A stretch of 64,000 nt of DNA from the NCBI GenBank assembly GCA_017464805.1, contig JAFTYE010000016.1:116167-180166 (forward strand). Reading direction: 5' to 3'. A model generated the notes under the pieces. The model did not search any database. It saw only the letters and a program-made list of their open reading frames with translations, and had not been told where the DNA came from. Of the stretch, positions 6,028 to 48,796 are shown piece after piece (position 1 is the stretch's first letter; every line of letters starts with the position of its first letter). This DNA is from Clostridia bacterium. Lineage in GTDB: Bacteria > Bacillota > Clostridia > Oscillospirales > CAG-272. The translations under genes were made by a program, and so were the position numbers.

Positions 6028-6501
6028 ATGAATATACAGAAAATTGAAAGTTTTGAGGTCGATCATACCCGCCTTGTGCCGGGCATGTACATCTCCCGCG
6101 TGGACGGGGACGTAACCACCTTTGATCTTCGCACCCGCCGCCCCAACGCAGGGGATTATATGGATAACGCCACCATGCACACCCTTGAGCACTTGTTTGC
6201 TACCTATATTCGAAACTCTAACATTGGCCAAGCCGTCCTCTACTTTGGCCCGATGGGCTGCCAGACGGGCTTTTACCTGCTTATGCGCAATACGACTCCT
6301 GTGACCGTTTACCGTGAGGTGCTTGCCGTTCTTCGCAAGATCCTATCCCACGAGGGGGAGGTGTTCGGTGCCAGCGAGGTGGAATGCGGCAACTATCGCA
6401 ACCTAACTCTTGAAGCCGCTAAGACCGAAGCAAAACGCTATCTCAATATTCTGGAGGCACGCGGTGAAACAGATTTTAGTTACGAAGGAGAAAGGACATG
6501 A
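6028..6501 (+). CDS. luxS: S-ribosylhomocysteine lyase LuxS
   Basis: Cleaves S-ribosylhomocysteine to homocysteine and DPD, the AI-2 precursor, in the activated methyl cycle. The 157-residue protein carries the metal ligands HTLEH (His51, His55) and Cys120 in ECGNYRNL, plus the catalytic Cys78 in GPMGCQTGF. I take the ATG at 6028, preceded by AAAGGAG, rather than an upstream in-frame start that would lie before the promoter. The stop overlaps the mtnN start by four bases (ATGA), so the two enzymes of successive steps are translationally coupled. Confidence 0.97.
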   Translation: MNIQKIESFEVDHTRLVPGMYISRVDGDVTTFDLRTRRPNAGDYMDNATMHTLEHLFATYIRNSNIGQAVLYFGPMGCQTGFYLLMRNTTPVTVYREVLAVLRKILSHEGEVFGASEVECGNYRNLTLEAAKTEAKRYLNILEARGETDFSYEGERT

Positions 6502-7187
6502 TCGGAATTATCGGTGCTATGAGCGTGGAAACCGAGGCACTTTGCGCCGCCCTCTGCGACCCCAAAAGCCGGACTGTCAGCGGTATCACCTACACAAGCG
6601 GAACTCTGGAGGGGCAAGAGGTTGTCATCGCCACCTGCGGAGTCGGGAAGGTGTATGCCGCCATCTGTACCCAGACGATGATCCTTATCTATCAGCCCAC
6701 CCTCATCATCAACACGGGTGTGGGCGGAACGCTTACCGAAAAGCTCGGCATCGGGGACGTGGCTGTCGCCACGGCCCTCGTTCAGCACGATATGGACACC
6801 TCGGCAATCGGTGATCCTGTCGGTCTCGTGTCTGGCATAAACAGGATTTATTTCGAGGCAGACCCAAAAACTGTCGACAAGCTCGCCTATTGCGTGACAG
6901 CCTGCAGTATGCACGCGGAGCGCGGTGTCATTGCCTCGGGAGACCAGTTTGTTGCCTCGCGTGAGCGTAAGGAATTTATTACAACTACCTTCGGTGCCAT
7001 TGCCTGTGAAATGGAAGGTGCGGCTGTCGCTCACGTTGCGACCGTTAATGGTTTGCCGTTTGCCGCAGTCCGTGCCATCTCGGATGAGGCGGACGGACAT
7101 GCTACCGTCGATTTCCCGACCTTCGCCGCACATGCGGCTGAAAACTCGGTCGCGGTGCTTCGTCGTTTCCTTGCCACGCTCGGATAA
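6498..7187 (+). CDS. mtnN: 5'-methylthioadenosine/S-adenosylhomocysteine nucleosidase
   Basis: Hydrolyses MTA and SAH to adenine plus the thioribose; the SAH product feeds LuxS directly, which fits the luxS-mtnN order. At 229 residues it has normal family length. Residues that match the catalytic set of the E. coli enzyme are Glu11 (SVETEAL), Glu173 in CEMEGAAVA and Asp196 in RAISDEADG. A GERKG-type ribosome binding site inside the end of luxS precedes the start. Soluble, no signal peptide. Confidence 0.96.
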   Translation: MIGIIGAMSVETEALCAALCDPKSRTVSGITYTSGTLEGQEVVIATCGVGKVYAAICTQTMILIYQPTLIINTGVGGTLTEKLGIGDVAVATALVQHDMDTSAIGDPVGLVSGINRIYFEADPKTVDKLAYCVTACSMHAERGVIASGDQFVASRERKEFITTTFGAIACEMEGAAVAHVATVNGLPFAAVRAISDEADGHATVDFPTFAAHAAENSVAVLRRFLATLG

Positions 7188-7219: not shown

Positions 7220-8068
7220 ATGAAAAAAAGGTTTCATTCAAGCAGCAGCATTTCACTGGTCATCATGGTCGTCGTTATGCTCCTGATCATCGCAGGCATT
7301 ATTGCTTTCAATGTTTTTTTTCAAACGCGAAACGATTGGAAAACGATCGGTGCGGATCTCATATCATCGCTGATGTCAGCAATCACCGTCAGCTTGATTA
7401 TCGGCACCTTCACCAAAATTATATCGGACAACATTCTGAAAATTGAAAAAAACGATCGCTGGTTAAAGTCTTTTGGTGTGGATAAGATCGGTGGCGGAAA
7501 ATCGACACACAAGGATACGCTTGAACTTTTTGGTAACCCATATAAGCAACACTATCCAAAGGAGATCAAGTTGTTCTTCATAACAGGAAATGGATTTTTG
7601 GCTCATTTCCAAAAAGAGATTGAGCATTATCTCCAACAACCAAATACCACCCTTAAAATACTTCTTGTCGATTATAGGGAAGAGAATGCTACCTATTTGA
7701 AGCGCATGGAGGACATATGCCCCCAAAAAGGAAACGGGTACGTTGATCAGATATTAAAAGAAAGCATCCCTGTTTTGAAGAAGATCCTCAAAAATACACA
7801 GATTGATCCCTCCAAAATTCAGCTCCGCTTCTTCAAGGATGAATATCGTTATAATTATCGTATTGCCAAATATGTTGATGAGGAAAATGTTCATCTGAAA
7901 TGTTGGTGGAACATTCAACCCTTTAACAGGGATGCTGTTGATCTGTCGATCATGCTCCATGGTGCGTATGTAAGTGACCTTCCGTCTGATGGCAATGTGG
8001 TGACCTGCTTGGATGATGGCTTTGATTACATTTTTGAAAAATATAAGGATACGCAATACAAATTTTAG
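7220..8068 (+). CDS. Two-TM membrane protein with cytosolic domain, function unknown
   Basis: I do not recognise this 282-residue protein with certainty. It has two hydrophobic segments (about residues 11-33 and 43-65) and then a soluble region of about 215 residues with alternating beta and alpha stretches, including a KEIKLFFITGNG strand-turn and a conserved-looking CWWNIQPFNRDAVDLSI region. The layout recalls membrane-anchored PLD-like or stress/defence effector proteins, but no HKD motif is seen. Base composition is more AT-rich than the flanking genes, which suggests acquisition. It follows mtnN by 32 bases with a GAAAGGGA ribosome binding site and faces the glmM unit, sharing its terminator. 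Confidence 0.7.
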   Translation: MKKRFHSSSSISLVIMVVVMLLIIAGIIAFNVFFQTRNDWKTIGADLISSLMSAITVSLIIGTFTKIISDNILKIEKNDRWLKSFGVDKIGGGKSTHKDTLELFGNPYKQHYPKEIKLFFITGNGFLAHFQKEIEHYLQQPNTTLKILLVDYREENATYLKRMEDICPQKGNGYVDQILKESIPVLKKILKNTQIDPSKIQLRFFKDEYRYNYRIAKYVDEENVHLKCWWNIQPFNRDAVDLSIMLHGAYVSDLPSDGNVVTCLDDGFDYIFEKYKDTQYKF

Positions 8069-8077
8069 AAATAAGAT

Positions 8078-8125
8078 AAAGGTCCCACCGTTCTTTGCCT
8101 TACGGGAAAGCACGGTGGGACCTTT
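8078..8125. terminator. Bidirectional terminator between the two-TM gene and the glmM unit
   Basis: Arms 8078-8091 and 8112-8125 form a perfect 14-bp stem around a 20-base loop that can pair further. On the minus strand the stem is followed by a U-rich stretch, so it can end the glmM/ribozyme transcript; on the plus strand the T-run is weaker. Confidence 0.8.
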
Positions 8126-8268
8126 CTGTCTTGCTTGAAATGTCCGTACATTTTGTCTGTCGGTTGCCCGACGGCTTTGTAGCACGGTACGGTCCATTCG
8201 ACCGAGGAGATGTCCGCCGAAATTTCGATAATCTCCTACCTCGTCAACCGCCGTGGCGGTCTGGCGCT
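8126..8268 (-). ncRNA. glmS-type self-cleaving ribozyme in a 3' untranslated position
   Basis: Read on the minus strand, the segment opens with AUAGCGCCAGA, the cleavage-site signature of glmS ribozymes (cut expected between A8268 and G8267). It continues with GGUUGACGAGG, then GGAGAUUAUCGAAAUUUCGG followed by CGGACAUCUCC, which match the conserved P2/P2.1/P2.2/P3 core very closely. The distal part has AGCCGUCGG with a GCAA-capped hairpin and a second hairpin AAAUGU-ACGG-ACAUUU, as expected for the P4 region. The family senses glucosamine-6-phosphate as cofactor and normally sits in the 5' leader of glmS. Here it follows glmM and an acyltransferase gene and is followed at once by a terminator and a convergent gene; no glmS lies downstream. 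Confidence 0.9.
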
Positions 8269-8305
8269 ATCATTGCCCGGATTTTCGGGGTTGTTTTTCT
8301 GCTGT

Positions 8306-8324
8306 GGCCCTTGGTGCCAAGGCC
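8306..8324 (-). other. Hairpin between the acyltransferase stop and the ribozyme
   Basis: On the minus strand GGCCUUGG and CCAAGGGCC pair with one bulged G, two bases after the stop codon. It has no U-tract. If the ribozyme cleaves, this would be one of the last structured elements of the upstream fragment. Confidence 0.5.
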
Positions 8325-8325
8325 T

Positions 8326-9006
8326 TCAACGTTTTTTTACGATACTGTTTTGGGATTTGTAGATGCTCTCGGTCGGCACATAGCCACGAACCGAGGAAAG
8401 GGGATAGACATTCGTGTACCGTCCGATCACCGTGCCGGGGTTGAGGACGCTGTTGCATCCGACCTCCACGTGATCACCAAGCATCGCACCGAACTTGCGA
8501 CAGCCCGTTTCCACGGTCTTACCGTTGCAATGGACGGCAATATAGCTTCGGTCGCTTTTGACGTTGGAGGTAACGGCACCCGCTCCCATGTGGGCCTTGT
8601 ATCCTAGAATCGAATCTCCCACGTAGTTGAAATGCGGAACCTCCACGCCGTCAAAGAGAATGCAGTTCTTCAGTTCCACTGAATTGCCGACCACAGCTCC
8701 TCGTCCTACGATCGCCGCACCGCGTATGAACGCGCCGTGCCGTACCTGTGCATCCTCGCAGATAATGCAGGGGGGCTCGATGCAGGCGGTCGGAGCGATG
8801 CACGCACTTTTGGCGACCCAGACCTCGGGAGAAATTTCGTCAAATTCCTCGCGGGAAAGAGTCTTGCCTATCTCTCCAATGATGCTTTTGATGGAGGATA
8901 ATACCTCCCACGGGTAGGTATAGTTTTTGAGATAGGGGAAGGCGATGGACCTTTCGCTTTCCCGATATAGTGTCGATATTTTCAGCTCTTCCATATCACA
9001 CCTCAT
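8326..9006 (-). CDS. Left-handed beta-helix acyltransferase, GlmU C-terminal-domain-like
   Basis: A 226-residue protein with a short N-terminal helical part and hexapeptide repeats from about residue 60 to 205 (for example IAPTACIEPPCIICEDAQVR), the fold of GlmU's acetyltransferase half. The nucleotidyltransferase half of GlmU is absent. In Clostridia such proteins are often labelled UDP-GlcNAc pyrophosphorylase-related. It overlaps the glmM stop by four bases (ATGA), so a role in acetylating glucosamine-1-phosphate or a related sugar made by GlmM is a reasonable inference; the uridylyltransferase would then be encoded elsewhere. An alternative start at Met5 is possible. Confidence 0.8.
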   Translation of the reverse strand: MRCDMEELKISTLYRESERSIAFPYLKNYTYPWEVLSSIKSIIGEIGKTLSREEFDEISPEVWVAKSACIAPTACIEPPCIICEDAQVRHGAFIRGAAIVGRGAVVGNSVELKNCILFDGVEVPHFNYVGDSILGYKAHMGAGAVTSNVKSDRSYIAVHCNGKTVETGCRKFGAMLGDHVEVGCNSVLNPGTVIGRYTNVYPLSSVRGYVPTESIYKSQNSIVKKR

Positions 9007-10367
9007 GCTAACCCAAGCTCACGGATCAGGTCGATCACGCTGTCCACGCAACGCTCGCAAAGTGCCGTGGTATCGGCCTCTGCCATCACGCGGATGAGTG
9101 GCTCCGTTCCGCTCTCGCGGAGCAGGATCCGCCCCGAATTTCCAAGCACACGGGTTATTTCTTCCATTTTTGCCTGCACGATCGGGTTTTCTCTCACTGC
9201 CTTTTTGTCACTGACGCGAATATTTTTGAGAACCTGCGGATACATCCGCACAGGCTCTGCCAACTTGGAAAGCGGCAACTTGCTTGTGATCATGGCCTCC
9301 ATGACCTTGATGGCGGTCAGGATGCCGTCGCCTGTGGTGGCATATTTGCTCAAAATAATATGCCCCGATTGCTCGCCGCCTATGCAGTTGCCGGTGGCTT
9401 GCATATTTTCGTAGACATATTTGTCACCCACGGCCGTCTGCACGTAGTCCATGCCGGCCTCGTCCAACGCACGGTAAAGACCCATGTTCGACATCACGGT
9501 CGTCACCACGGTATTGTTGGTCAGGCTACCCTTGTGCTTCATGTCGCATGCCAGCAGGTACATGATGTGATCGCCGTTGACCACGTTTCCGTTCTCGTCT
9601 ACCGCAACGCAACGGTCGGCATCGCCGTCAAACGCAAAGCCGACATCCAAATGATTTTCTCGGACGTAGTCCGCGAGTACCTCGATGTGTGTGGAGCCCG
9701 CGTCGCGGTTGATGTTCAGACCGTCGGGGGAGGCGTTGATGACGTGCGTCTTGGCACCAAGTGCGTCAAAAACGCTTTTGGCGATCATCCACGCGCTACC
9801 GTTGGCACAGTCAAGACCCACATTGTACCGCTTGAACGAATACAGGGAAAGGGAAATGAGATAGCCGATATAGCGATTGCGTCCCGCGGCGTAGTCCACG
9901 ATACAGCCAACGTTCTCTCCTGTAGCAAAGGGAGCGTCGGCTGTACCACCGGGGAAGGGGTAGTTGCCGTCAAGATAGGCCTCGATTTTAGTGATCGTTG
10001 CATCATCCATCTTCTCTCCACGGGAATTGACCAGCTTGATGCCATTGTCCATGTAGGGATTATGGCTGGCAGAGATCATGATGCCGCAATCAAAGCTTTC
10101 GCTTGCCGTGACGTAGGAAACACTGGGAGTGGTGGTCACGTGCAGCATGTACGCGTCAGCCCCAGAAGCCGTCAGCCCCGCTACGATCGAATACTCGAAC
10201 ATGTAGCTGGAGCGCCGCGTGTCCTTGCCGATCACGATGCGTACCTTGCGTGCGCCGCCCTCCCCGTAATACCAACCGAGGAAGCGGCCGATCTTGTAGG
10301 CATGCTCGGAGGTGAGGGTAATACCCGCCTCTCCGCGGAACCCGTCGGTTCCAAAGTATTTGGACAT
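9003..10367 (-). CDS. glmM: Phosphoglucosamine mutase GlmM
   Basis: Interconverts glucosamine-6-phosphate and glucosamine-1-phosphate for UDP-GlcNAc, hence peptidoglycan. I place the start at 10367 (MSKYFGTDGFRG), where AAGGAGA sits seven bases upstream, giving 454 residues; the frame stays open further up to 10412. Landmarks are the N-terminal FGTDGFRG, the phosphoserine loop ISASHNP (Ser101), the metal loop DGDADR and the C-terminal phosphate site RESGTEP. It has its own consensus promoter, and its message carries the glmS-type ribozyme at the 3' end, which would tie its fate to the level of its own substrate. Confidence 0.96.
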   Translation of the reverse strand: MSKYFGTDGFRGEAGITLTSEHAYKIGRFLGWYYGEGGARKVRIVIGKDTRRSSYMFEYSIVAGLTASGADAYMLHVTTTPSVSYVTASESFDCGIMISASHNPYMDNGIKLVNSRGEKMDDATITKIEAYLDGNYPFPGGTADAPFATGENVGCIVDYAAGRNRYIGYLISLSLYSFKRYNVGLDCANGSAWMIAKSVFDALGAKTHVINASPDGLNINRDAGSTHIEVLADYVRENHLDVGFAFDGDADRCVAVDENGNVVNGDHIMYLLACDMKHKGSLTNNTVVTTVMSNMGLYRALDEAGMDYVQTAVGDKYVYENMQATGNCIGGEQSGHIILSKYATTGDGILTAIKVMEAMITSKLPLSKLAEPVRMYPQVLKNIRVSDKKAVRENPIVQAKMEEITRVLGNSGRILLRESGTEPLIRVMAEADTTALCERCVDSVIDLIRELGLA

Positions 10368-10438
10368 GCTTTTTCTCCTTACGTGTGTATTATGCACCAA
10401 TACGCGTATCACGGATCAAAGAAAAACAACTATTGTCT

Positions 10439-10467
10439 ATTATATCATACATACATTTTTCTGTCAA
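10439..10467 (-). promoter_or_regulatory. Consensus sigma-A promoter of glmM
   Basis: On the minus strand a perfect TTGACA (10467-10462), 17-base spacer and perfect TATAAT (10444-10439). About 65 bases separate the expected start site from the glmM start codon. Confidence 0.9.
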
Positions 10468-48489: not shown

Positions 48490-48796
48490 TTACCGTGTGC
48501 CTGACAAGGCCATACTGGCCGGGGAAGTAGCGGGTCCTTGTACCTGAAATCCGCTGTAGCAGGGGTGATTTCCGTTTTTGAGGATGTCTCTCGGCTTGTC
48601 TGTGCCGCACGCGACTGTGTTGAAGGATGGGTCTTGCGCAATTCGATGCCGCGAACCATGTCAGGTGGGGAACCAAGCAGCATTAAACGGATGTTCGGAT
48701 GTGCCGCAGGGGTGCCTGTTCGGAGCAGTTTCGGCGGAGAACGGGGCTCGGAGATGATTCGATCTTACGGAGTATGGTCTTATCAGGCATACGGTA
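48490..48796 (+). ncRNA. ffs: Signal recognition particle RNA, large Gram-positive type with Alu domain
   Basis: Scaffold RNA of the SRP, which targets membrane proteins with Ffh. The 5' strand TACCGTGTGCCTGACAAGGC (48491 on) pairs with GTCTTATCAGGCATACGGTA at the 3' end, closing the molecule. The Alu-domain motif GGGGAAGTAGCGGG...ACCTGAAATCCGC matches B. subtilis scRNA, and the S-domain has GAACCATGTCAGGT...AAGCAGCATTAA. The helix 8 tip reads GG-GGAA-CC where the common form is CC-GGAA-GG, a compensatory swap. The setting just upstream of dnaX is the usual one. About 305 nt. Bases 48797-48888 hold only the dnaX leader. Confidence 0.95.

Follow-up and report, generated by a model that had tools for sequence, protein, structure and literature searches.

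What is a glmS ribozyme doing at the end of an operon that has no glmS behind it? The question is raised by a minus-strand unit in a 64-kb stretch of DNA from a Clostridia bacterium (the whole stretch is called the window, and its host genome is labelled G000), in which glmM is followed by acT, the gene for a GlmU-C-like acyltransferase (AcT), and then by a glmS ribozyme and a terminator. Glucosamine 6-phosphate (GlcN6P) is the coenzyme of the glmS ribozyme, which cleaves 5′ of a conserved GCGCC. Judged by comparison with sister loci, the window ribozyme is an intercistronic element that was stranded when glmS was lost from the locus. We consider it likely that it is a recent, probably still active remnant of a glmM-acT-ribozyme-glmS operon, with little selected consequence of cleavage.

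To the extent that sequence can tell, the window RNA belongs to the glmS ribozyme class. The Rfam model RF00234 matched positions 8279–8134 of the minus strand over its full length (model positions 1–167 of 167), scoring 68.7 bits where the gathering score is 37, with an E-value of 1.1e-13 for the window. This score and E-value rule out a chance match and establish the ribozyme that an earlier note on this DNA had proposed. The cleavage-site motif A/GCGCC (the slash marks the cut) was read intact in the sequence at A8268/G8267. We note that the ribozyme is not part of a glmS-controlling riboswitch system, because what lies 3′ of it is a terminator followed by a convergent gene, not glmS. The sister loci, where glmS is in place, do indicate that it derives from such a system. 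A phage origin of the ribozyme was also considered and rejected, as the region 8070–8330 had no match in 50,697 phage records.

The origin of the arrangement was traced through relatives in the same genus. We scanned 58 AcT loci from 55 of the 69 genus genomes with R1, a model derived from 17 ribozymes within the order; four weak AcT matches (in G014, and the second matches of G002, G000 and G057) were left out. Six loci had a ribozyme at 98–123 bits and the next match reached 12 bits, although the six genus copies match R1 by construction, because the model was built from them too. No half-decayed copies were found at the 58 loci with R1, which we count in favor of a remnant. In three sister species (G028, G043 and G049), GlmM is followed by AcT, the ribozyme, GlmS and then a convergent nucleosidase, which in G028 lies ~1.3 kb further on. 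The window order is GlmM, AcT, ribozyme, terminator, a convergent gene without family match and then the same convergent nucleosidase. Identity to the three sisters is 81%–84% for GlmM and 63%–66% for AcT, and DNA similarity to them spans acT through the ribozyme and ends at the 3′ edge of the ribozyme. No glmS remnant was detected in the 1,200 bases downstream of the window ribozyme (E 0.01). Since the sister loci have glmS in place and share the flanking nucleosidase, the window lineage has lost glmS here. As to origin, the earlier suggestion of a relic left by a lost downstream glmS is thus borne out by three species with glmS between the same ribozyme and nucleosidase. In G028 and G043, ribozyme and glmS are separated by a terminator-like hairpin, so part of the glmM-acT transcripts may already have terminated there, with ribozyme and terminator at their end, before glmS was lost. 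Only one other ribozyme orphaned at the 3′ end of such a unit was found in the genus, in G030, where the gene order is reversed and GlmM is 43% identical; on these grounds a conserved orphan clade in the genus was rejected.

The features of the window locus are as follows:

10439–10467, minus strand: promoter, TTGACA-17-TATAAT with a TG extension, 12 of 12 consensus hexamer bases
9003–10367, minus strand: glmM, phosphoglucosamine mutase, which consumes GlcN6P; TIGR01455, 522.5 bits against a cut-off of 447.55
8326–9006, minus strand: acT, GlmU-C-like acyltransferase with hexapeptide repeats; Pfam Hexapep above cut-off, best NCBIfam matches GlmU-type and below cut-offs
8306–8324, minus strand: predicted hairpin 3′ of the acT stop (single-strand fold)
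8276–8289, minus strand: small predicted hairpin 5′ of the cleavage site, with a CCC..AAATC..GGG pattern that recurs in G028, G043 and G049
8134–8279, minus strand: glmS ribozyme; RF00234, 68.7 bits
8267–8268, minus strand: expected cleavage site A8268/G8267, at the conserved A/GCGCC
8078–8125, minus strand: hairpin terminator of 48 bases; −31.6 kcal/mol, z −6.8
7220–8068, plus strand: convergent gene, by synteny at the place of glmS in sister loci; no Pfam or NCBIfam match
6498–7187, plus strand: methylthioadenosine/S-adenosylhomocysteine (MTA/SAH) nucleosidase gene, the synteny anchor common to sister loci; NF004079, 245.4 bits

The promoter, glmM and the convergent next gene agree with the earlier reading of this unit. 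A promoter scan of the region gave 2 promoter-like sites against 2.2 expected, so the rank of this promoter rests on its perfect hexamer match. The acyltransferase does resemble the acetyltransferase half of GlmU, as had been claimed, but it stays below the curated cut-offs. AcT matches this C-terminal half, a separate N-terminal half lies on contig C8, and no full-length GlmU above cut-off was found in G000; from these matches, the GlmU of G000 appears to be split into two halves. The nearest named AcT relatives come from uncultured Clostridia and other Bacillota, several of them from animal guts. The proposed terminator stands as a hairpin, with none of 200 shuffles folding as well, but its tail, ATCTTATTTC, is only fairly T-rich and a simple terminator scan did not list it. 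Likewise, the two small hairpins that had been described (8306–8324 and near 8275–8290) are predicted, but the segment 8326–8268 that holds both is as a whole no more stable than its shuffles (z −1.1). Elsewhere in the window lies a bacterial large signal recognition particle RNA (48510–48777, plus strand; RF01854, 146.7 bits).

That there is "no glmS gene", as the earlier note had put it, is true of the locus but not of the genome. G000 (1.76 Mb in 17 contigs, ~92% complete) has a full-length glmS on contig C14 (70504–72327, 786.7 bits), the sole glmS found in it, which rules out absence from the whole genome. Neither Rfam nor R1 detected a ribozyme 5′ of the C14 gene, and the window ribozyme is the only glmS ribozyme that Rfam found in the 1.76 Mb. 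The C14 GlmS shares at most 51% identity with the other GlmS proteins of the genus search. A strong GlmS match (E below 1e-60) was obtained in 21 of the 69 genus genomes, so glmS is patchy in the genus.

For a wider comparison, ribozymes were pooled from three samples with one genome per species: a set of relatives, in which 17 of 98 genomes gave a match, a draw across the order (99 of 394) and a draw across the family (87 of 395). The order and family surveys used stricter filters, which lose weak matches, so decayed ribozymes are under-counted. One ribozyme (L224, in G342) was kept in the pool at 33.6 bits, below the gathering score, and two more that lie 5′ of glmS in named genomes (L356 and L359) stand outside it. 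The 182 pooled ribozymes became 181 when L283 of G699 was dropped, as its coordinates and sequence are the same as in G157. We note that G699 and G157 (L175) belong to different families and have the same coordinates and ribozyme region, so one of the two drafts holds a stray contig.

A GlmS start lies 3′ on the same strand for 159 of the 181 ribozymes. Among these glmS-linked copies, 95 have GlmM (71) or AcT (24) ending at most 300 bases upstream. A position behind glmM is thus common for the ribozyme in the order, and the contrast that had been drawn with ribozymes in 5′ leaders is weaker than stated. The window ribozyme, like those of intercistronic glmM-ribozyme-glmS operons, lies behind GlmM and AcT, and the sister loci are orthologous to its own; the difference is that glmS is gone from the window locus. 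The 22 unlinked ribozymes comprise 10 that end a GlmM/AcT unit, 5 separate units, 4 in nagB leaders and 3 in glmM or acT leaders.

The ten 3′-end orphans (G000, G030, G152, G168, G357, G410, G490, G607, G692 and G745) are spread over genera, a further point that we count for a remnant. Congeners with a glmS-linked ribozyme were sampled for eight of them; for the other two, G168 and G410, none was in the sample by genus labels. Among the ten scattered cases we saw no arrangement common to two species by descent. Only G000 has a glmS above the curated cut-off, and none was found in the other nine genomes, which are 84%–99% complete. Terminator-like hairpins follow the ribozyme in eight of the ten, and lie between ribozyme and glmS in 48 of 158 linked copies, both counts coming from a loose scan without shuffled control. 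No clear terminator was found 3′ of the ribozyme in G490 and G152, where 1058 and 1821 downstream bases, respectively, were available.

One orphan retains pieces of the missing gene. In G357 (L218, 3001–3300), a putative glmS start (ATGTGCGG) and an internal glmS piece (47 bases, 77% to the glmS of a congener) are followed by a terminator-like hairpin. These two fragments lie beside the most changed ribozyme among the orphans and count in favor of a remnant; read as a glmS fossil, they are a direct picture of how 3′-end orphans arise.

Similar glmS-less loci in other genomes also speak against the idea that the organism has a glmS at the window locus that was lost in assembly. G000 is a draft of 17 contigs, and a stray contig is indicated for another surveyed draft, G699, but the window locus lies ~124 kb inside a 377-kb contig, with the nucleosidase anchor on the same contig and in the expected orientation. 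We regard an assembly artefact as very improbable.

At two of the orphan loci, a stop codon meets the expected cleavage site. The acT stop UAG of G410 (L191) straddles it (UA/G), so cleavage would leave a message without a stop codon, and the glmM stop of G745 (L320) ends exactly at it. Near the glmM locus of G168 lies a ZMP/ZTP riboswitch (L203 1494–1573, minus strand; RF01750, 65.6 bits).

We defined the core as the 31 columns conserved in at least 95% of glmS-linked ribozymes and counted deviations in 158 linked rows, leaving out L152 as mis-sliced. Linked copies had no deviation in 135 cases, one in 21 and two in 2. Among the 3′-end orphans, G490 and G745 had one core change each, G030 had two and G357 had five, and intact and core-changed orphans coexist among relatives. 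Two or more changes were found in 2 of 10 orphans versus 2 of 158 linked copies (p 0.018), which again favors a remnant.

Several results weigh the other way. Six of the ten orphans (G000, G152, G168, G410, G607 and G692) have no core change, the comparison at one or more changes (4 of 10 versus 23 of 158) reaches only p 0.056, and Rfam scores did not differ between the 8 3′-end orphans of the family and 77 linked copies (p 0.32). The window ribozyme itself is a copy without decay, with deviations in 0 of the 31 core columns. All 32 of its 32 checked helix pairs are canonical (pseudoknot contacts are not among them), and double-changed pairs number 5 relative to G043 and 7 relative to G028. 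It has 12 private changes where the sisters have 10, 5 and 15, which gives no sign of rate acceleration. The helices, which we take to be P1, P2, P2a, P3, P4 and P4.1, were picked by eye and checked sequence by sequence rather than by a column-wise pair count, because length changes in P4 misalign the columns. Given the intact core, the complete set of pairs and the lack of rate acceleration, the window ribozyme probably still cleaves. The earlier note was therefore right that core and cleavage site look intact, but its further argument, that this speaks against simple decay, holds only in part, because a recent loss would also leave the core intact, and the G357 copy has decayed. It had also named, as a finding that would undo its proposal, related strains with glmS directly downstream and this copy mutated in the core; relatives do have glmS directly downstream, but the window core is unmutated.

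Being flawless, the window copy could still have a use. One candidate is a selected switch in the 3′ untranslated region (UTR), in which GlcN6P, the substrate of GlmM, would trigger cleavage and so change how stable the glmM-acT message is, whether by destabilizing it through loss of the terminator stem or by protecting it with a cyclic-phosphate end behind the small hairpins. We think this possible but unlikely. The intact core, the helices with their compensatory changes, the lack of rate acceleration and the hairpins 3′ of the ribozyme in eight orphans are all consistent with a switch, and there is an engineered precedent (PMC3758297), in which a 3′-UTR glmS ribozyme knocks down Plasmodium genes. 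With no glmS above cut-off in nine of the ten orphan genomes, any use there would have to concern glmM or acT. However, we saw no two sampled species with the arrangement in common by descent, G030 with its reversed genes and divergent GlmM included; orphans have more core changes than linked copies; and a substrate that triggers loss of the enzyme consuming it would make for poor control logic. Both the scatter of the orphans and the mixed state of their sequences favor a remnant that still cleaves.

Under this preferred explanation, a stranded remnant, the ancestral role of the ribozyme would have been that of an intercistronic control element of the glmM-acT-ribozyme-glmS operon. When glmS was lost here in the window lineage, ribozyme and terminator would have become the 3′ untranslated end of the glmM-acT message. 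GlcN6P would still trigger cleavage at A8268/G8267, releasing ribozyme and terminator and leaving glmM-acT with a 2′,3′-cyclic-phosphate end, the kind of end that glmS ribozyme cleavage leaves, 58 bases past the AcT stop. At the window locus this cleavage would have little selected consequence, and the persistence of an intact copy would reflect recent loss of glmS; remnants of this kind would decay in time, like the G357 copy. That flanks or the terminator hairpin interfere with folding, leaving a remnant unable to cleave in the cell, seems to us distinctly improbable. The G357 copy shows that orphans can lose their core, and the unconstrained minimum-energy fold of the window ribozyme alone differs from the catalytic fold in P4. 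We note that the pseudoknots of this ribozyme class are beyond ordinary folding programs, so the predicted non-catalytic fold is weak evidence, and all checked helices are present in the sequence.

The other unlinked ribozymes lie in different settings. Separate promoter-ribozyme units were found in 5 of the 12 genomes of one family (G077, G127, G143, G157 and G183; L174, L175, L176, L177 and L188, 3 kb into each locus). Each unit has its own TTGACA-17-TATA(C/T)T promoter, with 35–43 bases between −10 box and cleavage site, and is followed by a hairpin (without a T-run in G157), with no gene apparent on the same transcript; all five genomes have a glmS above cut-off elsewhere. Four of the five show no core deviation and one shows a single one. 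In G342, G381, G443 and G542 (L213, L219, L224 and L344), the ribozyme lies in the leader of nagB, the gene for GlcN6P deaminase, with no core deviation in two cases and three deviations in each of the other two. The operon at L213 (G381) runs ribozyme-nagB-acT-glmM, in a genome in which glmS was found only in pieces. Among the three glmM or acT leaders (one without core deviation, two with one), the ribozyme is 5′ of glmM-acT with nagB behind in L223 (G402), 5′ of acT with glmM behind in L346 (G636), and 5′ of acT in L347 (G505). By eye, we observed a GGAGG motif ~10–25 bases 5′ of the cleavage site in the leaders of L175, L177, L188, L213, L219 and L223, near the expected RNA 5′ end and without an apparent start codon.

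A bolder and, in our judgement, doubtful reading is that after loss or movement of glmS the ribozyme can come to serve other genes of the same pathway by sensing GlcN6P for them. If true, the sensor would act from the 3′ UTR on glmM-acT in the window and, in relatives, from leaders of nagB, glmM or acT, or as a separate promoter-ribozyme RNA in one family. Such copies would then make up a re-deployed class of RNAs cleaved in response to a metabolite, including the first natural bacterial 3′-UTR ribozyme switch known to us. The nagB leaders also suggest the possibility that GlcN6P is made in some of these bacteria by NagB running in the amination direction; against it, according to PMC5902328, Akkermansia muciniphila NagB was unable to form GlcN6P under physiological conditions. 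The same paper describes A. muciniphila as lacking GlmS and needing N-acetylglucosamine or N-acetylgalactosamine, and by analogy loss of glmS is plausible in gut bacteria able to salvage amino sugars.

By covariance score, core and helices, the window ribozyme is the same class of RNA as the glmS leaders of Bacillus subtilis and Clostridioides difficile, but no glmS follows it; it ends a glmM-acT unit and precedes a terminator. The C. difficile copy is single and lies upstream of glmS, and cleavage in glmS leaders marks the glmS message for degradation (both from PMC11477304). The engineered ribozyme of Plasmodium likewise lies behind the coding sequence on which it may act (PMC3758297), although that system is artificial and eukaryotic, whereas the window case is natural and bacterial. 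In a passage of PMC2258182 that names no glmS case, Barrick and Breaker (2007) raised stranding by genomic rearrangement as one possibility where a high-scoring aptamer does not lie 5′ of a related gene. Loss of glmS from the window locus can be reconstructed from sister operons and the G357 fossil. A search of titles and abstract openings, with subscription literature mostly outside it, returned no report of a natural 3′-UTR, nagB-leader or stand-alone glmS ribozyme. McCown et al. (2011) reportedly placed all but two of 463 glmS ribozymes in glmS mRNAs, so copies outside glmS mRNAs had been noticed before.

The window arrangement varies on a known theme, and the pattern of stranded and re-used copies is more interesting than the single locus. 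The glmS ribozyme is the textbook one-gene ribozyme, and 22 of 181 in one order now lie apart from glmS. Two questions thereby become testable: the fate of a regulatory ribozyme after loss of its target, and the possible regulation of upstream genes when a bacterial message cleaves itself at its 3′ end.

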